Shown: positions 3,062 to 17,764 of the stretch, one piece after another
Numbering within the stretch: position 1 is the first letter of the stretch
Layout: every line of letters begins with the position of its first letter
From: Neopararhizobium haloflavum
GTDB taxonomy: Bacteria > Pseudomonadota > Alphaproteobacteria > Rhizobiales > Rhizobiaceae
Direction: 5' to 3'
DNA length: 64,000 bases
NCBI RefSeq assembly: GCF_002750855.1
Contig: NZ_NWUC01000003.1
Location: 62,001-126,000, forward strand
Translations under genes and position numbers: made by a program
The notes under the pieces: generated by a model
Databases searched by the model: none
The model's input: only the letters and a program-made list of their open reading frames with translations
Told to the model about the DNA's origin: nothing

Positions 3062-4021
3062 CTATTCGCCCGCGACGAAGCGGTAGGCTTCACCGTCCCT
3101 TTCCACACGCCCATTGCCCGGTTCCGGCATATGGAAGCCGACAATCCGCATATTCTCAGCAGCCAATCGATCCAACAGCATCTTGCGTGTCTCGATCGCA
3201 CGGTCGGGGTTCTGATCGGTGCCGGAGCGCCAATCGGGACGCTGAAAGGAGACCACGTGATTGTTCAGCGCATCGCCGACGATCATCACCGGCTCGTCGC
3301 CGCCATGGATGACGAAGGACGTATGGCCGGGCGTATGCCCGCCGGTGTCCATGGCCTCCACGCCAGACAGGACCTCCGCGCCGGGTTTGAAGAGATTGAT
3401 CCGATCGGCGAGGACGTCCAGCCGGCTCTGGGCGCCGACGACGAAGCTCTGCGCTGCCTCAGGCGTCTTTTCCAGCGTATCGGGCGCCGTCCAATAGGCA
3501 TGTTCGGCCTCGGCCATGTGATAGGCCGCATCAGGGAACATCAGCTCATCGAAATCGTCGAGCAGGCCCCAGAGGTGATCGGGATGGGCGTGGGTGAACA
3601 CGACATCTGTCACCTCATCAATCGAAAAGCCAGCAGCTTCGAAATTCTGCAGGAATTCGCCGGCACTCGGCATGAAGTTCGCGCCGGCGCCCAGATCGAA
3701 GACGACGAGCCCGTTCGGCGTGCGCAGTACCGAGACATTGCAATCAGGCTCCAGACCATCGGCGGAAAGGCCGCTTGCCTCGAGCAACGCGATGAGCTCC
3801 TGCTGATCGACGTCGGGAAAGGCGAAGTCGAGCGGCAGCATCAGGTTGCCGTCGGAGACGGTGGTCAGTGTGTTCTCGCCGAGTGCCAGGGACATGTCCT
3901 GCGCCCGCGCTCGTATTGCTGCGAAGCCCGGTAGTGCGGCCGCGAGCGTGGTCAACGCCGAAAGTTGGACAAAGCGCCGCCGCGTCAGTCTGATCGTCCG
4001 GCTGGCCGTTTGGTTGCGCAT
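3062..4021 (-). CDS. Tat-exported metallo-beta-lactamase-fold hydrolase
   Basis: The 319-residue protein starts with a twin-arginine signal (LTRRRFVQLSALTTLAAALPG). It has the metallo-beta-lactamase zinc motif THAHPDHLWG (HxHxDH), a later TGGHTPGHTSFV histidine and VGDAL aspartate, so a binuclear metal site in the periplasm is expected. The ATG at 4021 is chosen because GGGAGG precedes it by six bases; longer in-frame starts would bury the Tat signal. Sox clusters often carry metallohydrolases of unknown role (SoxG/SoxH in Paracoccus), and the position beside soxT suggests a similar relationship, but similarity to SoxH in particular cannot be confirmed here. The substrate is unknown. Confidence 0.78.
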   Translation of the reverse strand: MRNQTASRTIRLTRRRFVQLSALTTLAAALPGFAAIRARAQDMSLALGENTLTTVSDGNLMLPLDFAFPDVDQQELIALLEASGLSADGLEPDCNVSVLRTPNGLVVFDLGAGANFMPSAGEFLQNFEAAGFSIDEVTDVVFTHAHPDHLWGLLDDFDELMFPDAAYHMAEAEHAYWTAPDTLEKTPEAAQSFVVGAQSRLDVLADRINLFKPGAEVLSGVEAMDTGGHTPGHTSFVIHGGDEPVMIVGDALNNHVVSFQRPDWRSGTDQNPDRAIETRKMLLDRLAAENMRIVGFHMPEPGNGRVERDGEAYRFVAGE

Positions 4022-4074
4022 GCGTGCCTCCCACATAGAATTTATTGAATATTTGCATCGCCGCAGCCATGCGG

Positions 4075-5598
4075 TCAATCGGGCGGCAGGTCCCAGCCCA
4101 AAAGCCGATCGATCGGCGCGAAATCATCGGTCATCACGATCGTGTCGCGTTGGAGCAACGCCTGCATCGATCGCGCCGGCATCCGGCTCATCAACCGGCC
4201 GAAGAGCGGATCGACGAAGGTCGGCTTCGGCGTCGGGTTCCCGCCTGCAAAGATCACGAACGTCACGCGATTGCCCGGGATGATCTCGGACTGTTCCGCC
4301 CATACCTCGACAACAGGAAACACCGCCTCGATCGTCGCAACCATCGAGGCGAGGGCATCGAGGCGATCGGTATGGTCGATGATGTTCATCATGAAGACGC
4401 CGTCATCGGCGAGCTTTGCGCGAACGAGCTCGACATAGTCCCTTGTTATCAAATGCTGTGGGGCGGCGATGTCGGTGAACGCATCGGCGACAATGGCATC
4501 GAAGCCGCCCTCTTCCCTGCTCAACGCCAGCCGCGCGTCTTCCTGGCGCACGGTGAAGCGAGCGCTCTCAGCCCAAAACTCGTCATCGGCAACCTCCAAA
4601 ACCTGCGGATCGATCTCGGACACGACAATGGATGCGGAGTCTTCCTGTCGCTCGGCCCAGGCGCGCGGTAGCGTGAAAGCGCCGCCGCCGACGAAGAACG
4701 CCCGGCGTGGGGCGTTGCCAAGATGAACATTCGCCAGATTGTCGATGATGGCGGCATAGGCGTGATAGAGCGCGGTCGGCTCCTCCAGATTGATGCCGTG
4801 ACCAAGATGATCCAGCACCATGAGGCGTGCCTCCTGTCCGGCCTCGGCGCTGTAGTCCATCGTGCGGATGCAGAAATACTGGCTCTCCACGTCGCATGGA
4901 CTGCGTCCAATCGTCAGGCCGGCGCCGGCGGTCGCGAGCAGCAGGAAGGCGGCAAGAAGCACGGACGCCAGGCCCATGGCAGGGCGCGACGCGCGCGAAG
5001 CAGCGAGATAGAAGGCGAGCGCCAGAGCGATTTCGATCGCTGCCACGGTCAGGAGCGTCGTGCGCGTCCCCCAGAACGGGATGAACAGGAATCCCGCCGC
5101 CACGGTGCCGCCAATGGCCCCGAGCGAGCCTGCCGCGAAGAGCGCGCCCAGCCAGGGGCCCGAACGCTCCCCCGTCAATCCGATCAAGAGCTTGGCGAAC
5201 GGCGCCGACGGCACGCTGACGGCCAGGCTCGGGACGAAAAAGATGATCGTGGCGAGCAGAACAATCGCGGTCAGGGCCGTGCCCGAAGCGCCGATGACGG
5301 GCTGGGCGACAGCTGCCAGCAGTTGTGGCGCGAAAGCGGTCGTCATGGCTGCCAGAGCCATGAAATGGCCCGTCAGCCGATAAATTTCCCCGGCGCTCCG
5401 ATCGGCGTAGTATCCACCGACGGCATGGCCGGCGGAAAAGCCTGCAAGAACCACGGCGATGACGGCCGTCCACGTGTAGATGGACATGCCGAGATACGGC
5501 GCGAGCATGCGCCCGCCGACGATCTCGACAACAAGGCCAGCCGCCGAAATGACGAGACTCGCCGCAACGATGAGCGTTGCCGTTTGCTTGCCAGACAC
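4075..5598 (-). CDS. Membrane-fused spermidine synthase-like protein
   Basis: This 507-residue two-part protein has an N-terminal half with about seven hydrophobic segments (starting TATLIVAASLVISAAGL). The C-terminal half resembles the spermidine synthase/methyltransferase fold, with the nucleotide-binding glycine stretch FFVGGGAFTLPRAW, the acidic strand end VVSEIDPQVLEVA and DAFTDIAAPQHL. Such fused polyamine-synthase-like membrane proteins are widespread in bacteria but their reaction is mostly untested, so polyamine synthesis should not be assumed. The start is GTG at 5598 with GGGGAGG about a dozen bases upstream. It lies 53 bases behind the metallo-hydrolase on the same strand and may be cotranscribed upstream of it. 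Confidence 0.75.
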   Translation of the reverse strand: MSGKQTATLIVAASLVISAAGLVVEIVGGRMLAPYLGMSIYTWTAVIAVVLAGFSAGHAVGGYYADRSAGEIYRLTGHFMALAAMTTAFAPQLLAAVAQPVIGASGTALTAIVLLATIIFFVPSLAVSVPSAPFAKLLIGLTGERSGPWLGALFAAGSLGAIGGTVAAGFLFIPFWGTRTTLLTVAAIEIALALAFYLAASRASRPAMGLASVLLAAFLLLATAGAGLTIGRSPCDVESQYFCIRTMDYSAEAGQEARLMVLDHLGHGINLEEPTALYHAYAAIIDNLANVHLGNAPRRAFFVGGGAFTLPRAWAERQEDSASIVVSEIDPQVLEVADDEFWAESARFTVRQEDARLALSREEGGFDAIVADAFTDIAAPQHLITRDYVELVRAKLADDGVFMMNIIDHTDRLDALASMVATIEAVFPVVEVWAEQSEIIPGNRVTFVIFAGGNPTPKPTFVDPLFGRLMSRMPARSMQALLQRDTIVMTDDFAPIDRLLGWDLPPD

Positions 5599-5705: not shown

Positions 5706-6104
5706 TCAAAGGACCGCTGTCGCCTCGATCTCGACGCGGGCGCGATCCTCGACCAGCGCCTTCACCTCGACCATCGTCATTGCCGGAAAATTCCGTCCCA
5801 TCACGTCGCGGTAAACCCGCCCGAGTTCCTTCAGCGTTTGGAGATAGGCACGCTTGTCGGTGACGAACCAGGTCAGCCGGACAAGATGCTCAGGACCCGC
5901 GCCACCCGCCTCGAGAACGGCACGCACGTTCTTGAGCGCCTGCTCGCACTGACCCACGAAGTCGTCGGTCTCGAACACCTGGTCGGCCGTCCAGCCGATC
6001 TGGCCGCCGACGAAGATCATGGTTCCCGTCGCCTTGACGCCGTTGGCATAACCCTTGGCCGGCGCCCACCCGTCCGGCTGTATCACTTCATTGGAATGCG
6101 TCAT
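5706..6104 (-). CDS. RidA/YjgF-family imine/enamine deaminase
   Basis: The 132-residue protein is of RidA family size. It contains the family regions YANGVKATGTMIFVGGQIGW, FVGQCEQALKNVRAVLEAG and FPAMTMVEVKALVEDRARVEIEA, where the late arginine in RARVEIE matches the substrate-carboxylate-binding arginine of active RidA proteins. RidA proteins hydrolyse reactive enamines/imines to ketones and ammonia. It is the last gene of the anthranilate-type operon, one base beyond the ligase stop, so a pathway-specific deaminase role is attractive: the dearomatised product of 2-aminobenzoyl-CoA monooxygenase/reductase is itself an enamine. The start ATG at 6104 is preceded by a GGGG-containing purine stretch. 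Confidence 0.85.
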   Translation of the reverse strand: MTHSNEVIQPDGWAPAKGYANGVKATGTMIFVGGQIGWTADQVFETDDFVGQCEQALKNVRAVLEAGGAGPEHLVRLTWFVTDKRAYLQTLKELGRVYRDVMGRNFPAMTMVEVKALVEDRARVEIEATAVL

Positions 6105-6105
6105 C

Positions 6106-7734
6106 TCATGCCCCTTCGCGCAGCTTGAATCGTTGGATTTTCCCTGTCTGGGTCTTCGGCAGCGCGTCGACGAAATGTATCTGACGGGGGTATTTGTAAG
6201 GCGCGATCGTCGCCTTGACGTGATCCTGCAATCTCTTGGCCATCGCATCCGAGGCCAGCGCCGGGTCGTTCAGGACGATGTGCGCGCAGACGATCTGTCC
6301 ACGTGCCTCGTCGTCAACACCGATGACGGCGCATTCGGCCACGTCGTCATGCGCAAGCAGAGCCGCCTCCACTTCCGGTCCGGCGATGTTGTATCCGGCG
6401 GAAATGATCATGTTGTCGGAGCGCGCGGCAAAATGGAATGCGCCGTCCTCGTCCTGAAAGAAACTGTCCCCTGTCAGGTTCCAGCCGTCGCGAACATAGT
6501 TGCTTTGCCTTGAATCGGCGAGATAGCGGCAGGCCGTCGGCCCCTTGACGGCAAGCTTGCCCACCGTGCCGCGCGGCACCTCCCGCATGTCGTCATCGAC
6601 GATGATTGCCCGATACCCATTGACCGGTGTGCCGGTGCAAGCGGGCCTGGCGTCGTCAAACCGGTTGGTGATGAAGATGTGGAGCATTTCCGTCGAGCCG
6701 ATCCCGTCGAGCATCGGCTTGCCGGTCTTTTTTGCCCAGGCTTCGAAGACCGGGCCGGGCAGCGTCTCGCCGGCCGACACCGCGGCGCGCAGCGAGGAAA
6801 GGTCGGCCCCCTCGTCCATCGCCGCCAACATTGCGCGGTAGGCCGTCGGCGCGGTGAAGCAGACCGTCGCGCGGTAGGTCTGGATGATCTCGATCATGTC
6901 GGGCGGCGTCGCCTTTTCGAGGAGCGTCGCCGCGGCTCCGAACCGCAAGGGGAAGACCGCCAGCCCACCTAAACCGAAGGTGAAGGCAAGCGGGGGCGAG
7001 CCGACGAAGACATCGTCCGGCGTGACGTTCAGGACTTCCCTGGCATAGCCATCGGCAATGACCAGGAGGTCCCGGTGAAAATGCATGGTCGCCTTGGGCT
7101 CTCCGGTCGTGCCCGAGGTGAAGCCGAGCAGCGCCACGTCGTCGCGGCCGGTTTTCACGGCATCGAATCGAACCGGCTTGTTGAGCGCGATCCGATCGAG
7201 CTCGGCATCGAAATTCGCGGTGCCGTCGAAACCGACGACCTTCTTGAGGAAGCGGCTGTCCTTGGCGCAGGCGACGAGTTCATCCATCAGCCGCGTGTCA
7301 CACAGCGCCAGCGAAATCTCCGCCTTGTCGACGATCTTGCCCAATTCGACGGCGCGCAGCATCGGCATGGTGTTGACGACAACTGCGCCAGCCTTGGTCG
7401 CGGCAAGCCAGCAGGCGACCATCGCCGGATTGTTGGCGGAGCGGATCAGAACGCGGTTGCCCGGCTTGACGCCGTAATCCTCCGTCAGCGCATGCGCCAG
7501 ACGGTTGGTCCAGTCCGACAGTTCCTTGTAGGTGCGACGGCGGCCATTGCCGATCAACGCCGTATTGTCGCCGTAGCCCTTCTCGACCAGCCTGTCGGTG
7601 AGCTCGACGCCCGCATTCAGATAGTCGGGGTAGTCGAACCCGGACAGGTCGATTTCAGGCCATTGGTCGAAGGGCGGCAAGTTGTCCCGCGCGAACGTGT
7701 CGACGTGACCCGTCGGTCCCAGCTGCATCGTCAT
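6106..7734 (-). CDS. Aryl-CoA ligase (2-aminobenzoate/benzoate-CoA ligase type)
   Basis: This 542-residue adenylate-forming enzyme has the phosphate loop [17 protein letters not shown] at about residues 205-221, the downstream ADP/ribose region [16 protein letters not shown] and the C-terminal catalytic lysine motif TGKIQRFKL. It resembles benzoate/2-aminobenzoate-CoA ligases, which activate the acid with ATP and CoA in the cytoplasm. The next enzymes in the operon act on CoA thioesters, and the two-domain monooxygenase/reductase points to 2-aminobenzoate as substrate; salicylate or benzoate remain possible. The start overlaps the acyl-CoA dehydrogenase stop by four bases (ATGA), so the two are translationally coupled. 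Confidence 0.85.
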
Positions 7735-8876
7735 CCTCCCATCACCTGGCGCGCGATCACGACCTTCTGGACGTCAGAGGCGCCCTCATAGATCCTCAGT
7801 GCGCGAATTTCGCGGTAAAGGCTTTCCACGATGGAGCCCTTGCGAACGCCGTCACCGCCATGAATCTGCACGGCTTTGTCGATGACCTGTTGTGCGCGGT
7901 CGGTGGCATAGAGCTTGGCCATCGCCGCTTCCCTCGTCACGCGCGGGGCGCCCATGTCCTTGGTCCAGGCCGCCCGGTAGACCAGAAGTGCGGCGGCATC
8001 GACATCGAGCGCCATGTCGGCGATATGCCCCTGGACCATCTGCAGGTCGCCGAGCGGGGCGCCGAAAAGCTCGCGATTGCGCGCGCGGTGGATCGTCTCG
8101 TCAAGCGCCCGGCGGGCAAAGCCCAGCGCCGCGGCGCCGACCGTGGAGCGAAAGACGTCAAGCACCGACATCGCGATCTTGAAGCCCTCGCCCGGCTTGC
8201 CGATCATGGCCGACGCCGGCACACGGCAGTCACGGAACGTCAGTCTGGCCAAAGGATGTGGGGCGATGACCTCGAGCCGCTCGGCGATTGCCAGTCCAGG
8301 TGTATCGGCCGCCACCAGAAAAACGGAAATGCCACGCGCCCCCGGCGCTTCGCCGGTGCGCGCGAAGACACAATAGAGATCGGCGATCCCGCCATTGGAT
8401 ATCCAGGTCTTCTCACCGGACAGTACATAGCTGTCGCCATCTCGTTCCGCGATCATCTCCATATTGGCGACGTCGGAGCCGGATTTGGGCTCCGACAGTG
8501 CGAAGGCAGAGATCGCTTCGCCAGCCCGCGTCCTTCTGAGCCATCCCCTTTGCTCGTCCGTGCCGAACAGCGATATCGCGCCGGTGCCGAGCCCCTGCAT
8601 GGCGAAGGCGAAATCGGCGAGACCGTCATGGCGCGCCAGGGTCTCGCGGATCAGTGCCAGCGAGCGCACGTCGAGCGGGCCGCCACCGTCCGGTTCGATC
8701 GCCGAATGTGAGAGGAAACCGGCCTTGCCCAGCGCCATGACAAGATCCCTGCAGGCGGCGTCGACGTCGCTGTGGTCGACAGGCAGGTGCGTTTTGCACC
8801 ATTCTTCCAGCTGTCCAGCAAGTGCGCGGTGGCGATCTTCGAAGAAGGGCCATTCCAGGAAGGAGCCGTCAGCCAT
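7731..8876 (-). CDS. Acyl-CoA dehydrogenase
   Basis: The 381-residue flavoprotein has the FAD/substrate motif [18 protein letters not shown], the segment [13 protein letters not shown] and the C-terminal catalytic region [19 protein letters not shown], whose glutamate is the likely base. Length and motifs are those of ordinary acyl-CoA dehydrogenases. In this operon it probably oxidises a ring-derived cyclohexane/cyclohexene-carboxyl-CoA or a ring-opened acyl-CoA after dearomatisation; the exact step is inferred. The start ATG at 8876 overlaps the enoyl-CoA hydratase stop by one base (TGATG), which decides it over a longer in-frame extension. Confidence 0.88.
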
Positions 8877-9688
8877 CAGTTGCCCTCGAAAACCGGCTTC
8901 TGCTTCGCCACGAATGCGTGGTAGGCGCGATGGAAATCCTGGGTCTGCATGCATATTGCCTGTGCCTGCGCCTCAGCCTCGATCGCCTGTTCCAGACCCA
9001 TCGACCATTCATGGTTGAGCTGGGTCTTGGTGATCGAATGGGCGAAGTTCGGACCGGCAGCGATGCGGCTGGCGATCTCCATGGCGTCCGTCTCAAGATC
9101 GTCGGCGTCCACAAGCCGATTGTAGTAACCCCAGCGCTCGCCTTCCTCGGCGCTCATCGAGCGGCCGGTATAGAGGAGTTCTGCGGCCCTTCCCTGCCCG
9201 ATCAATCGAGGCAGCATGGCGCAGGCGCCCATGTCGCAACCGGCAAGACCCACCTTTGTGAACAGAAACGCTGTCTTCGCGGCAGGCGTGGCAATCCGGA
9301 TGTCGGATGCCATGGTGATGATCGCGCCGGCACCGACGGCGACACCATCGACAGCCGAAATGATCGGCTTGCCGCAATTGAGCATGGCCTTGACGAGGTC
9401 GCCGGTCATACGCGTGAAGGACAAGAGGGCCTTCATGTCCATCCCCGTCAGCGGGCCAATGATGTCGTGCACATCGCCACCGGAGCAGAAATTGCCGCCA
9501 TTGGGGAGAAAAACCACCGCGTCGATATCGTCGGCATAATGGAGATCGCGAAAGGTGTCGCGAAGTTCGGCGTAGCTTTCGAAGGTCAGCGGATTCTTGC
9601 GGTCGGGACGGCTTAATCGAATGCGTGCGATCGATCCGTCGGTTTCCCATTCGAAATGTGTCGGCTTCAGACCCTTCATTGACGTCAT
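8876..9688 (-). CDS. Enoyl-CoA hydratase/isomerase (crotonase) family enzyme
   Basis: The 270-residue crotonase-fold protein has the oxyanion-hole segments [13 protein letters not shown] and [15 protein letters not shown]. The helix region [18 protein letters not shown] replaces the usual glutamate-bearing loop of classical hydratases, so chemistry other than simple hydration (isomerisation or C-C hydrolysis of a cyclic ketoacyl-CoA) is possible. The protein acts in the cytoplasm on CoA esters. The gene lies mid-operon and overlaps the MarR gene stop (TGATG at 9690-9686); the alternative ATG at 9691 would overlap by four bases. Confidence 0.85.
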
Positions 9689-10161
9689 CATTCGCGTTCC
9701 CGTTTCCTGTCGATCAATCCCAGCAGCGAAAGCAATTCGTCAGCGGTGCCGTCATCGACATCCTGCAACAATTCGCTGACCCAACCGCGGTGAACGGTCG
9801 CCATTGCCGCGAAGTCCGCCCGGCCCTTGTTGGTCAAGCGCACCAGCATGGCGCGGCGATCGCCCTTGACCGAAACGCGCACCACAAGGCCATCGGTGAC
9901 GAGACGCTCGACGATGCCGGTGACGTTGCCATTCGAGACCATCAGTTCGGCCGACAGCTCGCTCATCTTCATGCCCTTCTCGGCCCGATAGAGCGCCGCG
10001 AGCACATCGAAACGCGGCAGCGTGGTGCCGAACTCCAGACGAAGGCGCTCACGCAACTCCGCCTCGATGCCGCGCTGCGTCTTCAGTAGCTTGAGCCAGA
10101 CACGCAGGCGCTGCCGCGCGATGTCGGGACGCGCCAGATCCATTGGCTCGATGTCGCTCAT
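9688..10161 (-). CDS. MarR-family transcriptional regulator of the aromatic operon
   Basis: The 157-residue protein has a MarR winged helix: recognition region [27 protein letters not shown] and wing [18 protein letters not shown]. MarR proteins near CoA-dependent aromatic pathways commonly bind the aryl-CoA intermediate, which releases them from DNA. The gene is embedded in the operon it probably controls: its start overlaps the SDR stop by four bases (ATGA) and its stop overlaps the hydratase. GGGGGAG precedes the chosen ATG at 10161. A long palindrome upstream of the operon (13264-13289) is the likely target site. The ligand is inferred. Confidence 0.88.
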
Positions 10162-10922
10162 GTCTCCCCCCCGGAGATGGAGATTGCCTGTCCGGTGACG
10201 GATGCCGCACCTGTCCCGCAAAGCCAGAGCACCGTGTCGGCGATCTCGGAAGGCTGGATCAAACGTCCTTGGGGATTGTTGGCCGTCAAGGCGGCCTCGG
10301 CCTCCGGGCGGCTCTTTCCGGTCTTTTCGATGATGTTGTCGATCGAGCGCTCGAGCAGAGGCGTTTCGGTGAAGCCGGGGCAGATCGCGTTCACGGTGAT
10401 CCCGGTCCTGGCCGTTTCCAGCGCCAGCGCCCGCACGAGGCCGACGACCCCGTGCTTGGCAGCGCAATAATGGGCCACATAGGGATAGCCCTTCAGGCCG
10501 GCGGTGGAGGCTATGGCGATCAGGCGTCCATGTACTGCCGCGCGCATTGAAGGCAGCGCCACCCTGAACGTGCCGAAGACACCGGTCAGATTGACCGCAA
10601 GCATCGCCTGCCAGTCCGCCATTTCCATGCGGTGCAAGGGTGTGCTTTGCGCGGCACCCGCATTGGCAACGACGATGGAGGGCGCGCCGCGCGCCGCCGT
10701 CGCCTCGGCAAAGGCGCCTGCCAACGCACTTTCGTCGGTGACATCGGCTACGACCGGATGGATGCGATCGCTCGATCGCGCAACATCTTGCAACGCGTCG
10801 ATGCGCCGACCCAGGATAGTGACACTCGCGCCCGCGTCAGCGAGGGTCCGCGCGATCACAGCGCCGACACCGGAACCACCGCCCGTGATCAGGGCGTGAC
10901 GATCTGCAAGCCGATCCGTCAC
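10158..10922 (-). CDS. SDR-family oxidoreductase (3-hydroxyacyl-CoA dehydrogenase type)
   Basis: The 254-residue short-chain dehydrogenase has the cofactor motif [20 protein letters not shown] near the N-terminus, a VANAG segment, and the catalytic serine region IAIASTAG followed by [16 protein letters not shown] (YxxxK). It most likely oxidises a 3-hydroxyacyl-CoA made by the neighbouring crotonase-family enzyme. The GTG start at 10922 is chosen because it overlaps the stop of the monooxygenase/reductase by four bases (GTGA), giving translational coupling and putting [15 protein letters not shown] at the N-terminus; the upstream extension has no family similarity. Confidence 0.87.
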
Positions 10923-13213
10923 ACCGCACCACCTGTCTGGTCGGCCCGTTCGGCCAGACGATTGAGCTGGTCGCGTCCGGGCCAGTAAGGTGCGGGCCAA
11001 GCCTCTGCGCGGTCGCCGAGCTGCGCCGCCGCATGCAGCGTCCAGTAGGGATCGGCGAGATGGGGTCGGGCGAGACAGACCAGGTCAGCGCGTCCGGCCA
11101 TCAGGATCGAGTTGACATGATCCGGCTCGTAGATGTTGCCGACGGCCATGGTCGCCATGCCCGTTTCGTTGCGGATGCGGTCGGAAAAGGGCGTCTGGAA
11201 CATGCGGCCGTAAACAGGCTTCGCCCGCTTCGATGTCTGGCCGGCGGAGACATCGCAGATGTCGACCCCCGCCGCCTGCAGCATGCGCGCGATTTCCACC
11301 GCTTCGGCCGGCCCAACACCCTCGCCTTCGACCCAGTCATTGGCGGATATGCGCACGGAGATCGGCTTGCCTTCCGGCCAGACCTGGCGGACGGCGTGAA
11401 AGATCTCCAGCGGATATCGCATGCGATTTTCCAGGCTGCCGCCGTATTCGTCGGTGCGCCGGTTGGTCAGCGGCGTAATGAAGGCCGAGAGCAGATAGCC
11501 ATGCGCCATATGGATTTCGAGCATGTCGAAACCGCAGCGACGGGCCATTTCAGCGGCCGCGACGAACTGGTCGCGGACAAGGTCCATGTCGTCGCGGTCC
11601 ATCTCCTTCGGCGCAGAATTGCGATCCGACCACGGCACCACGGAGGGGGCGAGCAGTTGCCAGTTGCCCGTCTTCAAGGGGGCATCCATCTCCTGCCAAC
11701 CGAGCTGGGTCGAACCCTTGGCGCCTGAATGGCCAATCTGGGCACAGATCTTCGCATCGGTTTCGGTGTGAACGAAATCGACGATCCGCTTCCAGGCTGC
11801 CTCGTGCGCAGGGTCGTAGAAGCCTGGGCAGCCCGGCGTGATGCGGCCCTCGGGGGAAACGCAGGTCATTTCGGTATAGACGAGACCGGCGCCGCCCTTG
11901 GCGCGTTCGCCATAGTGGACCAGGTGCCAATCGGTCGGACAGCCGTCGACCGCCTTGTACTGCGCCATCGGCGAGACCACGATGCGGTTCTTCAGCTCCA
12001 GATCGCGCAATCGGAATGGCGTAAACATGGGACGGCGCACCGGCTCATTGCCGTTGAGACCGGCCTGGCTGCGGAACCAGCCCTCGGCGCTTTCCAACCA
12101 TTCGGCATCGCGCAGCCGCAGGTTCTCGTGACTGATCCGCTGCGAACGGGTGAGCAGCGAATAGTTGAACTGGACCGGATCGAGGTCGAGATAGCGCTCG
12201 ACGTCCTCGAACCAGGCCAGCGAATTCTTCGCCGCCGACTGGAGTCGCAGCACTTCGAGGCGCCGCGCGTCTTCATATTTGGTGAAGGCGGCCTCCAGCG
12301 TTGGTTCGGAATGAACGTAATCGGCCATGGCGATCGCACTTTCGAGCGCCAGCTTGGTGCCCGAACCGATGGAGAAATGTGCCGAAGCGGCCGCATCTCC
12401 CATCAAGGCAAGGTTTTCGTGAGACCAGCGCTCGCAAAGCACGCGCGGAAAATTGATCCAGGCCGAACCGCGGATATGGTTGGCATTGGTCATCAGCGAA
12501 TGACCGTCGAGATGGTCCTTGAATATCTCCTCGCAGACCGCGATCGACTCCTGCTGGCTCATCGCACCAAAGCCGAAATTGTCCCAGGTCTCTTGCGAGC
12601 ATTCGACGATGAAGGTCGCGGTGTCGGGATCGAACTGGTAGGCATGAGCCCAGACCCAGCCGTGCTTCGTCTTCTCGAATATGAAGGTGAAGGCGTCGTC
12701 GAATTTCTGATGGGTGCCGAGCCATACGAACTTGCATTCGCGCACGTCGATATCGGGCTTGAAGACCTCTTCGAACGTCTTGCGCGCCTTGGAGTTCAGG
12801 CCATCGGCCGCGATCACCAGATCGTACGCGTCCATATAGGACGTCACGTCTTCGATCTCGGTCTGGAATCTGAGATCGACCCCGAGTTCGCGGGCGCGCT
12901 CCTGGAGCAGCATCAGCAGTTTCTGGCGGCCGATGCCGCAAAATCCATGTCCGGTCGAGACTGTTCGCGTTCCCTTGTGGAAGACGGCGATGTCGTCCCA
13001 GTATGCAAAGTGGCCGCGGATCGCTTCGGCACTTTTCGCGTCGTTCGTCATCAGGTTGTCGAGTGTCTCATCCGACAGCACAACGCCCCAGCCGAATGTG
13101 TCGTCGGCCTTGTTCCGCTCGAAGACGACGACCTCGTGAGACGGGTCGCGCAATTTCATCGAGATCGCGAAATAAAGCCCTGCGGGTCCTCCGCCCAGAC
13201 ATGCAACACGCAT
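10919..13213 (-). CDS. 2-aminobenzoyl-CoA monooxygenase/reductase (two-domain flavoprotein)
   Basis: The 764-residue fusion is diagnostic for the operon. Residues 1 to about 390 are an FAD-dependent aromatic hydroxylase ([15 protein letters not shown] at the start, [10 protein letters not shown] near residue 134, [16 protein letters not shown]). From about residue 396 there is an Old Yellow Enzyme-type barrel ([59 protein letters not shown]). This architecture and length match the 2-aminobenzoyl-CoA monooxygenase/reductase of Azoarcus evansii, which hydroxylates and then reduces the ring to 2-amino-5-oxocyclohex-1-enecarboxyl-CoA. Databases also label such proteins salicylyl-CoA 5-hydroxylase; the RidA gene argues for the amino substrate. 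It is the first gene of the operon. Confidence 0.88.
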
Positions 13214-13263
13214 CGCGCTCGCTCCCTTTTGTCATCTCGACAATGGCAGAGCGGCAAAACAGT

Positions 13264-13289
13264 TTCAAGTATGAAATTTTAAGTTTGAA
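13264..13289. promoter_or_regulatory. Candidate MarR operator upstream of the aromatic operon
   Basis: In the 100-base spacer before the first operon gene there is a 26-base imperfect palindrome with arms TTCAA...TTGAA and a symmetric AAATTT core (13274-13279); 16 of 26 positions are symmetric. Within it two AAGT[AT]TGAA[AT]TT units also repeat directly 14 bases apart. The AT-rich dyad sits about 50 bases upstream of the start codon, where repressor binding would block transcription. MarR regulators bind such dyads, and one is encoded in the operon. The pairing is inferred. Confidence 0.5.
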
Positions 13290-14253: not shown

Positions 14254-15147
14254 CTAGAGTTCCGGCAACGCCGGACGCGTCTCCATGGCGGCGGTGATAA
14301 TGCGGTCGACCGCTTCGGAAAGCGGGCCGGAAAGCGGCTGACGCGGGGCGCGGACGCGATCGTTTGAACCGATCGCATGCACTTCGGCCCGCTTGATGTT
14401 CTGGACCAGATAGGAAGAGACGTCGAGATCGAGCAGCGGGCGGAACCAGCGATAAATTTCAAGCGCCTCCCTGGTACGGCCGGCCTGAACGAGTTTGTAG
14501 ATCGCCACCGTTTCCTTCGGGAATGCACAGACAAGGCCCGCCACCCAGCCGACCGCACCGACCGACAGCGCCTCGAAGGCAAGGTTGTCGACGCCGGTCA
14601 GGATCTTGTAGCGGTCTCCAAGCCGGTTGATGATCTCGGTAGTGCGACGAATGTCGTCCGACGATTCCTTGATCGCGACGAACCGCGCATCGCTGGCCAA
14701 CTCCTCCATCAGGTCAGGCGTGATATCGACCTTGTAGGCGACGCGGTTGGAATAGATCATCACGGGCAGATCGGCCGCCTCCGTCACCGCACGGAGCGTT
14801 GCCAGGGTTTCGGCCCTGTTGGTCTCGTAGACGAGGCTCGGGACCACCATCAGCCCATCGGCGCCGGCCTTCGCTGCCGCCTTGGCGAGCGCGACGGAAT
14901 CGCGTGTGGCCGCTGCGGCGACCGTCATCAGGACCGGCTTCCCGCCGGCTGCGTCCCGCGCAGTCTTCAAAAGGTCCAGCTTCTCCTCCAGCGACAGCAT
15001 CGGACCTTCGCCCAGCGATCCTGCGACGATGAGGCCGTCGCAGCCTGCATCCATCTGCAGCCCGTAGCAGCGGGCGTTCTCCGCATGGTCGAGCGTGTCG
15101 TCCGCCTTGAACTTGGTCGTGACGGCGGGGAGGATTCCGGTCCACAT
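14254..15147 (-). CDS. Dihydrodipicolinate synthase/N-acetylneuraminate lyase family protein
   Basis: The 297-residue class I aldolase-fold enzyme has the Schiff-base lysine in FVAIKESSDD, a catalytic-type tyrosine in MIYSNRVAY and the pyruvate-binding GSLGEGPML loop. It is not lysine-pathway DapA by context. Its pattern (VDITPDLM, AIKESSDDIRR, GVDNLAFEAL, RWFRPLLDLD) recalls the DapA-like enzymes of hydroxyproline catabolism that deaminate pyrroline-4-hydroxy-2-carboxylate, but no other hydroxyproline genes are here. It is cotranscribed with the carnitine dehydrogenase (40-base gap). The start at 15147 has AAGGA about 12 bases upstream. The substrate is unresolved. Confidence 0.8.
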   Translation of the reverse strand: MWTGILPAVTTKFKADDTLDHAENARCYGLQMDAGCDGLIVAGSLGEGPMLSLEEKLDLLKTARDAAGGKPVLMTVAAAATRDSVALAKAAAKAGADGLMVVPSLVYETNRAETLATLRAVTEAADLPVMIYSNRVAYKVDITPDLMEELASDARFVAIKESSDDIRRTTEIINRLGDRYKILTGVDNLAFEALSVGAVGWVAGLVCAFPKETVAIYKLVQAGRTREALEIYRWFRPLLDLDVSSYLVQNIKRAEVHAIGSNDRVRAPRQPLSGPLSEAVDRIITAAMETRPALPEL

Positions 15148-15187
15148 CGATCGTCTGTCCTTCTTGATGCTGAGATCTTTCAGGCGA

Positions 15188-16201
15188 CTATGGCACATCC
15201 TTTCGTCCGGCGCGAAGGCCGGCCTCGTATGCCTGCAAGAGCGCACCTGCGCCCCACCCAGCGCCGTCCTCGGCGCCCTTCAGCGCGTTGAGGATCGCGG
15301 TCAGATTGTCGTCGCGTATCGCTTCCAGTTGGCGCACCGAACGGCCCCTGGCCTGCGCGTCGGACTGCTCGGCGATGCGGCCGACAAGCGCCTCATCAAG
15401 ATCAGGAACATCGGTCAGATGCGTCCACGGCCATTTCAGCGCGGGGCCGAACTGGGCAAGGAAATGGGCCATACCGGCCCTTCCGCCCGCGATACGGTAG
15501 GTCTCGAAGATGCCCATCTGCGCAAAGCGCAGACCGAAACTGTAGCGGATGACATCGTCTAGCGTCTCGGTGTCACAAACCCCATCCTTGATCAACCACA
15601 GGGCCTCGCGCCAGAGCGCCTCCAAAAGCCGGTCGCCGATGAACGCATCGATCTCGCGCCGAACGAGGAGGCCCTTCATGCCGATGGCCGCAAGCGCGGT
15701 CCTGGCCTTTTCGATCGCCTCGGGGGCTGTCTTTTCGCCGGCCACCAACTCAACGCCGGGCAGCAGATAGACCGGGTTGTAGGGGTGGGCGACGAAGAAA
15801 CCAGACGCCGCCTGCCCGCTGCCGAACGCTTCGGCAAGCACGCTCGGGCGAAAGCCGGAGGTCGACGAGCCGATCAGCGTGTCCGGCCCCGCCGCCCTGC
15901 CGATCGAGCCTAGGACCTCGTGCTTCAAATCGAGGCGCTCCGGCACGCTCTCCTGTACCCAGTCGGCACCGGCAACGGCCTCTTCCAGGCTTGCGCAAAA
16001 GGTGACGCTGCCTTTTTCCGGCAGCGGTGCATCGGTGAGCCGGCGATAGGCCCGTTCGGCGTTCGCGAGGATTTCTCCGACCACGTTCTCGGCATCAGAC
16101 GCCGGATCGAAGACGGCAACGTCGATGCCATTCAGCGCGAAGCGGGCGACCCAGCCACCGCCGATCACACCACCCCCAATGGCTGCGGCCTTGTCGATCA
16201 T
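15188..16201 (-). CDS. lcdH: L-carnitine dehydrogenase (3-hydroxyacyl-CoA dehydrogenase family)
   Basis: This 337-residue NAD-dependent dehydrogenase begins AAIGGGVIGGGWVARFAL, a Rossmann fold at the very N-terminus, followed by VFDP. It has the catalytic-region HPYNPVYLLPGVELV and the C-terminal helical domain typical of the 3-hydroxyacyl-CoA dehydrogenase family. Sequence pattern and pairing with a BKACE enzyme point to carnitine 3-dehydrogenase, which converts L-carnitine to dehydrocarnitine. Many rhizobial homologues carry a fused C-terminal betainyl-CoA thioesterase domain; this one ends at 337 residues, so that domain is absent. It starts 10 bases after the BKACE stop. Confidence 0.8.
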   Translation of the reverse strand: MIDKAAAIGGGVIGGGWVARFALNGIDVAVFDPASDAENVVGEILANAERAYRRLTDAPLPEKGSVTFCASLEEAVAGADWVQESVPERLDLKHEVLGSIGRAAGPDTLIGSSTSGFRPSVLAEAFGSGQAASGFFVAHPYNPVYLLPGVELVAGEKTAPEAIEKARTALAAIGMKGLLVRREIDAFIGDRLLEALWREALWLIKDGVCDTETLDDVIRYSFGLRFAQMGIFETYRIAGGRAGMAHFLAQFGPALKWPWTHLTDVPDLDEALVGRIAEQSDAQARGRSVRQLEAIRDDNLTAILNALKGAEDGAGWGAGALLQAYEAGLRAGRKDVP

Positions 16202-16211
16202 CGTTCGTCTC

Positions 16212-17114
16212 CTATTGCTTTTTCAGCGCGAGGCGCCGGCGCACAGCATCCGGGCCGACGACGCTTGCGCCCATGCCCTCCACCACCTTCACCGCCTCTT
16301 CGACGAGGTCGGTATTGGTCGCCAACACACCTTTCCTGAGATAGAGATTGTCTTCCAATCCAACGCGCACATTGCCCCCGGCCAGGACAGCTGCCGCGGG
16401 ATAGGCGCGCGCGTTGCGGCCGATGGAGAAGGCCGAGAAAGTCCAGCCGTCCGGCACGTTCGCCACCATGGCGAGAAAGGTCGTCAGATCGTCGGGCGCA
16501 CCCCAGGGAATGCCCATGCACAGTTGCAGCAGCACCGGCGCCTCGATCAATCCTTCTTCGACGAGGCTCTTCGCAAGCCACAAATGTCCTGTGTCGAAAG
16601 CCTCGATCTCGGGACGTACGCCCAGATCGCGCATGCCGACGGCCATGGCGCGCAGCATGGCCGGCGTGTTGGTCATTACATAGTCGCCGGCCGAAAAATT
16701 CATTGTGCCGCAATCAAGCGTTGCGATCTCGGGGCGGCATTCGGCGATGTGTAAAAGCCTCTCGGCGGCGCCAGCCATGTCCGTGCCCGCGTCGTCGAGC
16801 GGCAGCGGATGCTCAGTCCCGCCAAGCACAAGGTCGCCGCCCATACCGGCTGTGAGGTTGAGCACAACATCGGTCTCGGCGTCACGGATGCGCTGCGTCA
16901 CCTCGCGAAAGAGTGCCGGATCGCGCGACGGCGCGCCGGTCTCGGGATCGCGAACATGGCAGTGGACAACCGCCGCACCGGCCTTGGCCGCATCGATGGC
17001 CGCCTCGGCGATCGCCTTCGGCGTCACCGGCACATGCGGCGACTTGCCGGCCGTGTCTGCCGAACCGGTGACGGCGCATGTGATGAAAACCTCGCGGTTG
17101 ATGGCTAGCGGCAT
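16212..17114 (-). CDS. BKACE (DUF849) beta-keto acid cleavage enzyme, probably dehydrocarnitine-specific
   Basis: The 300-residue protein is of the beta-keto acid cleavage enzyme family: TIM-barrel fold with the metal-binding VVHCHVRDPETG histidines, LTAGMGGDL, DCGTMNF and EAFDTGHLW. These enzymes condense a beta-keto acid with acetyl-CoA and split it to acetoacetate and a new CoA ester. Next to carnitine dehydrogenase the expected substrate is 3-dehydrocarnitine, giving betainyl-CoA and acetoacetate. It is first in the operon. The ATG at 17114 follows AGGGAG at good spacing, whereas longer in-frame starts lack family similarity. Substrate choice is from context. Confidence 0.85.
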   Translation of the reverse strand: MPLAINREVFITCAVTGSADTAGKSPHVPVTPKAIAEAAIDAAKAGAAVVHCHVRDPETGAPSRDPALFREVTQRIRDAETDVVLNLTAGMGGDLVLGGTEHPLPLDDAGTDMAGAAERLLHIAECRPEIATLDCGTMNFSAGDYVMTNTPAMLRAMAVGMRDLGVRPEIEAFDTGHLWLAKSLVEEGLIEAPVLLQLCMGIPWGAPDDLTTFLAMVANVPDGWTFSAFSIGRNARAYPAAAVLAGGNVRVGLEDNLYLRKGVLATNTDLVEEAVKVVEGMGASVVGPDAVRRRLALKKQ

Positions 17115-17386
17115 GACAGGCTCCCTGATCGGTCTCGCGCGGTCGAGCCATAAAGGCAAAAGCGGCCCGGCGAAAGGCGGACGGTCAAAGCCAGCCTGGT
17201 CGGTCCTTGCGCCCCCGTCAGGTTTGCCGCAACTGCAACGCGCAATGGACCTGAAATGTCGCTTTCGCTGCCATTTTCGACCTGGATTGCGTTGTCGCAT
17301 CCTTGGCGGCAGGGCATCCTTTTGCGGGGCGAAAGCCGCCTCGCGTCCAGGAACGGCGCAGTTGGCCGGCAAGGGGAGGCAAGACC

Positions 17387-17764
17387 ATGCAGCGCACGAA
17401 TGGTCCGTTGGGCGCACTTCTATTCATCGCCCTTGGGGCAGGTGCAAGCGCCAACGATCTGCATGTACCAATCATCGAACATGCCTCGGACGGCCAAATG
17501 GCCTCCTGCTCGTCCAGCATGGTCAGCGGGCTCGACCCGAACGGCGACGGCTTCCTTGCCGTGCGCGCCGGCCCCGGCAGCCATTACCCGAAGCTCGGTG
17601 AGCTCTACAATGGCGAAATTGTTCTCGTCTACGATCAGAAAGGCGAATGGGCCGGCGTCGTCTACCGTGGCAGCTTCGGCTGCGACTCGATCGTCACCCG
17701 CGAGGTAACGCATCCCAACCGGGGCTGGGTGCACACGAACTGGCTGCGGCACCATGCCGGCTGA
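17387..17764 (+). CDS. Exported SH3-domain protein
   Basis: The 125-residue protein has a signal peptide (GALLFIALGAGASA) followed by one bacterial SH3-like domain: FLAVRAGPGSHYPKLGELYNG, VLVYDQKGEWAGVVY and the ending GWVHTNWL. Three cysteines lie in the mature part, which suits an oxidising periplasm. Bacterial SH3 domains often bind cell-wall peptides, but no enzymatic domain is present here. The ATG at 17387 is preceded by GGGGAGG. It is divergent from the BKACE gene across 272 bases in which no promoter stands out. A second SH3 protein of different build is at 36117. Confidence 0.8.
   Translation: MQRTNGPLGALLFIALGAGASANDLHVPIIEHASDGQMASCSSSMVSGLDPNGDGFLAVRAGPGSHYPKLGELYNGEIVLVYDQKGEWAGVVYRGSFGCDSIVTREVTHPNRGWVHTNWLRHHAG

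Follow-up and report, generated by a model that had tools for sequence, protein, structure and literature searches.

A seven-gene operon of Neopararhizobium haloflavum, found in a 64,000-nucleotide stretch of contig NZ_NWUC01000003.1 (positions 62,001 to 126,000; here called the window), joins the 2-aminobenzoyl-coenzyme A (CoA) gene clusters already described, abm for short, as a further member, of an alphaproteobacterial type, and does not represent a new pathway. Its last gene encodes a Rid protein in which the hallmark arginine of RidA is replaced by methionine. On balance, we find it somewhat probable that the operon as a whole serves an anthranilate-CoA pathway in which this Rid would release ammonia by hydrolysis from the enamine made by the monooxygenase/reductase, 2-amino-5-oxocyclohexene-carbonyl-CoA, and leave a dioxo-CoA ester.

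The Rid gene (5706..6104, minus strand) encodes 132 amino acids that match PF01042 at 79.6 bits (cut-off 27.3), and the predicted structure, a monomer model with a mean pLDDT of 94, has the Rid fold. Its motif FPAMTMVEV aligns with FPARSCVEV of H. influenzae HI0719, so that the position of RidA Arg105 is taken by Met109 (codon ATG, 5778..5780, minus strand, in FPAMTM). A preliminary description of the operon had credited the protein with the key arginine. Instead, methionine stands there in all 64 close relatives, while arginine is present in 26 of 38 other Rids, and the protein thus lacks the residue that marks RidA, Rid1-3 and RutC, the Arg-type imine deaminases. Glu125, the counterpart of RidA Glu120, is kept in 64/64 close relatives and in 5/5 and 2/2 members of further sets; the same glutamate occurs in 37 of the 38 other Rids, however, and does not discriminate. 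Tyr19, at an active-site tyrosine position, is found in 63 of the 64 close relatives, and both Trp38 and Met109 are invariant in the abm Rids. In addition, residue 99 (window 5808-5810) is arginine in 59/64 abm and 5/5 actinobacterial Rids and in 4/38 other Rids; to judge from the alignment, a charge serving the CoA ester might have moved to this position.

A tree of 71 Rids, which included 22 of the 64 close relatives by even thinning and was built from few columns with a midpoint root, places the Rids of the abm, actinobacterial and haloarchaeal clusters together with four paralogs in one starred clade (99/95). This clade sits on a 44-row side where all 11 other, general Rids lack the arginine as well; the 22 abm rows are set apart by a branch supported at 87/90, which is not starred. 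The protein does not group with the Arg-bearing Rids, and in the published scheme (PMC4433059) it would belong on the Arg-less side (Rid4-7) and not with RidA. Rid paralogs scoring 115-134 bits were also seen at four loci (L120-L123) in the same-order genera g12 and g21, with serine (three) or methionine (one) at the arginine position. No abm genes adjoin them at L120 and L122, the two loci whose neighbors were scanned, and the L122 gene is surrounded by ABC transporter genes.

How widely does the Rid accompany the two-domain monooxygenase/reductase, a question that the preliminary description had raised? The 398 genomes surveyed phylum-wide, with E <= 1e-150 as the limit for the monooxygenase/reductase and 150 bits as the minimum for the abm Rid, comprise 69 with both, 2 with the monooxygenase only, none with the Rid only and 327 with neither. 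The Rid is thus present in 69/71 monooxygenase-bearing genomes versus 0/327 of those without the enzyme, an association far beyond chance (Fisher p ~1e-75, a value that overstates independence, because the genomes are related). For the abm Rid model, 34 sequences from the same genomes were used together with the window Rid, and the 150-bit cut was chosen after the gap in scores (163 to 134 bits) was seen; at E <= 1e-15 the Rid is called in 109/398 genomes, the 40 extra ones scoring at most 72 bits. Among held-out monooxygenase genomes, with no row in the Rid model, 35/37 have the Rid, and a blind case picked via the general Rid family alone (G400) encodes an abm-type Rid with the monooxygenase ~4 kb off. 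A survey of a species collection that started from the Rid, covering the best 80 of at least 542 loci, found the monooxygenase within the stored DNA at 69. For five of the 11 remaining loci the genome was searched, and all five carry it elsewhere. Of 11 abm-type Rids chosen for a location away from the monooxygenase or on a different contig, nine (L125, L127, L128, L134-L139) adjoin at least one cluster gene, be it ligase, crotonase, dehydrogenase or MarR.

In G296 (L058) and G349 (L085), which have the monooxygenase only, its gene lies next to one for an FAH-family hydrolase and one for a homologue of gentisate 1,2-dioxygenase. The same two genes accompany the monooxygenase of the haloarchaeon Natrinema salinisoli (L111) and a second monooxygenase copy in G225 (L055), whose Rid is found ~13 kb from the other copy. 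Overall, the dioxygenase occurs in 4/86 loci scanned, and Rid in none of those four. Against the NCBIfam gentisate 1,2-dioxygenase model, the dioxygenases of L058, L055 and L111 score 306, 320 and 208 bits, under the cut-off of 442, and that of L085 was identified through its similarity to those of L055 (653 bits) and L058 (597 bits). On the monooxygenase tree, which has long branches, the starred branches require the dioxygenase linkage to have changed three times, by gain or by loss, and there are three independent pairs for a sign test, too few for it to reach significance. Apparently, these four loci belong to another pathway that goes by the same family name, salicylyl-CoA 5-hydroxylase. 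A nitrilase-family gene is also found near the dioxygenase, FAH and monooxygenase genes of L055, L058 and L085.

The Met-type Rid is also present in 5/5 actinobacterial plasmid clusters examined (L108, L112, L113, L115, L116), one of them on plasmid pAL1 of Arthrobacter sp. Rue61a. The stretches shown of L108, L112 and L115 carry no annotated crotonase or acyl-CoA dehydrogenase, so that the Rid seems tied to the product of the monooxygenase and not to beta-oxidation. (A short-chain dehydrogenase/reductase (SDR) gene lies further off in L112, and both an SDR and an acyl-CoA dehydrogenase gene further off in L113; the L116 record is without annotation.) Genes for an FAH hydrolase, a small cupin and an acyl-CoA thioesterase adjoin Rid in L108 (22136-29049), L112, L113 and L115, and this set is perhaps a second lower route, in which the FAH hydrolase could open the ring. 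The Rid is present in four of the six haloarchaeal plasmid records examined; the other two, L111 and Halostagnicola L119, show none within ~10 kb on either side (less for L119) or among the 30 of 278 matches listed; no dioxygenase lies within the stretch of L119. In the abm-like haloarchaeal loci L109, L110, L118 and L173, with Rid in the stretch, the monooxygenase adjoins an LLM-class flavin oxidoreductase, and L109 also has kynureninase and trpB.

Why would a Rid without its arginine be kept so faithfully in this pathway? From the gene content, the methionine substitution and the co-occurrence observed here, we infer the following course for every reaction after the monooxygenase. The ligase would convert anthranilate to 2-aminobenzoyl-CoA, from which the monooxygenase/reductase family is known to make 2-amino-5-oxocyclohex-1-ene-carbonyl-CoA, a beta-enamino thioester (PMC4539516, PMC3534580). 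With water, the Rid would turn this into 2,5-dioxocyclohexane-carbonyl-CoA (acid C7H8O4) and ammonia. In the solved RidA-type complexes described, the arginine (R105) holds the carboxylate of the ligand through a bidentate salt bridge, with the glutamate placed next to the carbonyl that reacts (PMC4960622). In the proposed substrate the acid would be masked as a thioester; since a thioester has no carboxylate, a Rid acting on an acyl-CoA would be expected to lose the arginine and keep the glutamate near the reacting carbon, as with the invariant methionine and Glu125. RutC is reported to deaminate 3-aminoacrylate, a small free-acid beta-enamine, and to require its arginine (PMC8113886); as the free-acid analogue of the beta-enamino thioester, 3-aminoacrylate would lend the proposal support by analogy.

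The next step may fall to the crotonase-fold enzyme (8876..9691, minus strand; ECH_1, NF006107), a candidate ring-opening enzyme. As the preliminary description had noted, it does without the usual glutamates: in PDB alignments both catalytic residues of enoyl-CoA hydratase, which we take to be E144 and E164 in the numbering of the rat enzyme, are missing. On the other hand, an aspartate is invariant in 59/59 operon crotonases and aligns with an aspartate found in related PDB structures, among them 1,2-epoxyphenylacetyl-CoA isomerase (4fzw). By analogy with BadI, which opens a ring by hydrolysis of a beta-keto thioester, it is plausible that the crotonase would open the ring of the dioxo ester in the same way, giving 4-oxopimeloyl-CoA. 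The acyl-CoA dehydrogenase (7731..8876, minus strand; 381 amino acids, assigned with Pfam) would carry on after ring opening; its glutamate in the motif YEG is kept in 53/53 homologues.

Nitrogen release by the Rid, which the preliminary description had proposed, fits well with the genomic evidence, that is, the near-perfect co-occurrence and the absence from gentisate-type clusters, as well as with a metabolite of the right formula. In anthranilate-grown cells only, Arthrobacter sp. Rue61a is reported to contain a CoA ester whose acid has the formula C7H8O4; the authors suggested cyclohexanedione-carboxyl-CoA, while the aminocyclohexenone-CoA itself went undetected (PMC3534580). The part of the proposal that built on the arginine has fallen away, and the published rule predicts an inactive protein.

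Several points, this rule among them, weigh against deamination by the Rid. Rids without the arginine are reported to have shown no deaminase activity, the arginine has been called necessary and sufficient for predicting activity, and Salmonella Rid7, Y3550 and the RutC R104A variant were all inactive (PMC5619798, PMC8113886, PMC7221256, PMC4433059). In those tests, as the available parts of the papers describe them, the substrates were aminoacrylates and imines derived from amino acids, and no CoA esters were used. The 11 neighboring general Rids are Arg-less too, so the loss of the arginine may predate the pathway. A CoA ester may also exceed the usual RidA cleft in size, and deamination could be spontaneous or due to another enzyme. 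C7H8O4 is a formula, with no structure, and since Rue61a has chromosomal paralogs of the pathway genes, the ester need not stem from the cluster on plasmid pAL1. Furthermore, an FAH-family hydrolase is found in the actinobacterial Rid clusters, as in the gentisate-type ones, although gentisate dioxygenase is absent from the former, and two of 11 separately fetched abm-type Rids (L124, L126) have no pathway genes adjoining.

These points leave room for other roles. The Rid might have as its substrate a tautomeric CoA intermediate or one further along the pathway, and serve as an isomerase, tautomerase or ring hydrolase, with the enamine hydrolyzed spontaneously or by the crotonase. This would agree with the arginine rule, and Trp38 and Met109 suggest, from the residues themselves, a more hydrophobic site in which Glu125 could be a general acid or base; nevertheless, we regard it as unlikely, given that L108, L112 and L115 keep the Rid with no crotonase or acyl-CoA dehydrogenase in the opened stretch, and that the gentisate dioxygenase loci are without it. 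A somewhat less probable role is damage control, the archetypal one of RidA as reported (PMC4433059), in which the Rid would be no pathway step and would clear a reactive by-product, for instance from an imine or from 5-hydroxyanthraniloyl-CoA, said to arise under limiting NADH (PMC3534580). A clade-specific Rid in near-obligate co-occurrence is hard to reconcile with such a general function, although the organism's own genome has four other Rid genes.

The loss of the catalytic arginine, and the published Arg-less Rids for which no activity is known in the source as available (PMC4433059), would suit a subunit of the pathway that has no catalytic role and binds a ligand or regulates. With the active-site glutamate and tyrosine positions conserved, and with a MarR regulator already in the operon, we consider this quite improbable. 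Finally, the operon could serve salicylate or salicylyl-CoA, with a Rid unrelated to nitrogen, as the family name of NF006101 (salicylyl-CoA 5-hydroxylase/oxidoreductase) would imply. This is very improbable: no gentisate dioxygenase is found in the window cluster or in 82/86 loci, and the four loci that have it are those without Rid, on which grounds the salicylate operon was dropped as a candidate. The ligase, moreover, is 54% identical to one reported to be active on anthranilate (PMC3534580), and genes of the tryptophan-to-anthranilate route occur near related, Rid-bearing clusters, with kynU at L109 and L115 and a tryptophan dioxygenase gene at L113 and L117. A source of anthranilate is also at hand in the genome of the window, where kynureninase and tryptophan dioxygenase are both encoded on other contigs.

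Returning to the operon itself, the seven genes run on the minus strand from 13213 to 5706 in the order monooxygenase/reductase, SDR, MarR, crotonase, acyl-CoA dehydrogenase, aryl-CoA ligase and Rid, and all frames are open, with no internal stops. From 13213 on, the junctions measure −4, −4, −4, −1, −4 and +1 bases. The overlapping stop and start codons that the preliminary description had seen along the operon, without naming the MarR gene, are thus real at 5/6 junctions. It is the two-domain monooxygenase/reductase, with ligase, crotonase, dehydrogenase, SDR, MarR and Rid alongside, that marks the operon as an abm cluster. Ruegeria pomeroyi DSS-3 carries these genes too, together with one for a small cupin. 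This enzyme (10919..13213; 764 amino acids) combines an FAD monooxygenase and an OYE-type domain (FAD_binding_3, Oxidored_FMN), scores 1292 bits against NCBIfam NF006101 (cut-off 1078) and shares 49% identity with the pAL1 enzyme. The ligase (6106..7734; 542 amino acids) scores 364 bits against the benzoate-CoA ligase family TIGR02262, slightly under the cut-off of 375, and its 54% identity is to the neighboring pAL1 ligase; on this likeness its substrate is probably 2-aminobenzoate. The SDR dehydrogenase (10158..10922; 254 amino acids, adh_short 169 bits) has a GTG start that overlaps the preceding stop, and the MarR-family regulator (9688..10161; 157 amino acids, PF12802/PF01047) was scanned within the longer frame 9688-10467. 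Upstream of the first gene, an imperfect inverted repeat TTCAA...TTGAA (13263-13289) is predicted as a possible MarR operator.

To call this a complete set of beta-oxidation-type genes, as was done at first, is an overstatement. Family scans found neither a thiolase nor a 3HCDH-type hydroxyacyl-CoA dehydrogenase among the seven genes, and with no thiolase the set is incomplete. SDR was detected in 3/80 betaproteobacterial loci and not in the other 77 at the threshold used, while loci elsewhere carry it, which makes SDR doubtful as a core step of the pathway.

How does the operon compare with known systems? The abm cluster of Azoarcus (Aromatoleum) evansii, from the work of Schuehle et al. in 2001, reportedly comprises a ligase, a fused monooxygenase/reductase, beta-oxidation-type enzymes and a MarR regulator. 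The abstract of that work reportedly lists a 'putative translation inhibitor', an old name of Rid proteins. Unlike the window operon, the A. evansii cluster is said to occur in two copies and to include an ABC binding protein. The pAL1 anthranilate cluster of Rue61a shares the ligase, the monooxygenase/reductase and the Met-type Rid with the window, but differs in having an FAH-family hydrolase, a small cupin and a thioesterase; none of the genes annotated in the 50 kb shown codes for an SDR, a crotonase or an acyl-CoA dehydrogenase. Anthranilate-CoA ligase activity is reported for ARUE_113p00220 of Rue61a (PMC3534580), which is taken by position to be the AMP-binding gene beside the pAL1 monooxygenase, as locus tags differ between paper and record.

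Catabolic Rids are already known, and a dedicated catabolic Rid would not be the new role for the family that had been suggested: 2-aminomuconate deaminase (PMC6742747) and RutC (PMC8113886) are both described as catabolic. These differ from the window Rid, however, in that RutC needs Arg104 and AmnE, the 2-aminomuconate deaminase, has a conserved Arg117, and both act on a free acid, RutC on no CoA ester. Rid4-Rid7 resemble the window Rid in lacking the arginine and keeping the glutamate, but Rid4 and Rid7 have tryptophan at the arginine position and Rid5 and Rid6 are variable there (PMC4433059), whereas the window Rid and its relatives have an invariant methionine. An invariant methionine with such a pathway linkage is not described in the available parts of the literature on Rid4-Rid7. 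Likewise, a literature search mainly of open-licence papers, partly available as excerpts, gave no Rid assigned to the 2-aminobenzoyl-CoA pathway and no Arg-less Rid tied to a CoA pathway, and the available portions of PMC4539516, PMC3534580, PMC8879955 and PMC8388817 make no Rid assignment for it.

On either side of the operon, other genes lie on the same strand. At 14254-17417, a beta-keto acid cleavage enzyme (BKACE), a 3-hydroxyacyl-CoA dehydrogenase-type enzyme and a DHDPS-family aldolase are encoded in a row that resembles an L-carnitine breakdown operon. At 3062-5598, a fused MFS/spermidine-synthase-type protein (NF037959, 597 bits) is adjoined by a metallo-beta-lactamase-fold hydrolase, whose match to AidB lactonase is under the cut-off.

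The lower aerobic 2-aminobenzoyl-CoA pathway has been described, in the available parts of the sources, as beta-oxidation only, with the fate of the nitrogen unassigned, and the comparison made here names one gene for it. At the same time, one NCBI family name, salicylyl-CoA 5-hydroxylase/oxidoreductase, splits into clusters with Rid and Rid-less, gentisate-type clusters. If the Rid does release ammonia from the enamine-CoA, the arginine would be a reader of the substrate carboxylate, outside the hydrolytic machinery, and the function of other Arg-less Rids would be reopened.

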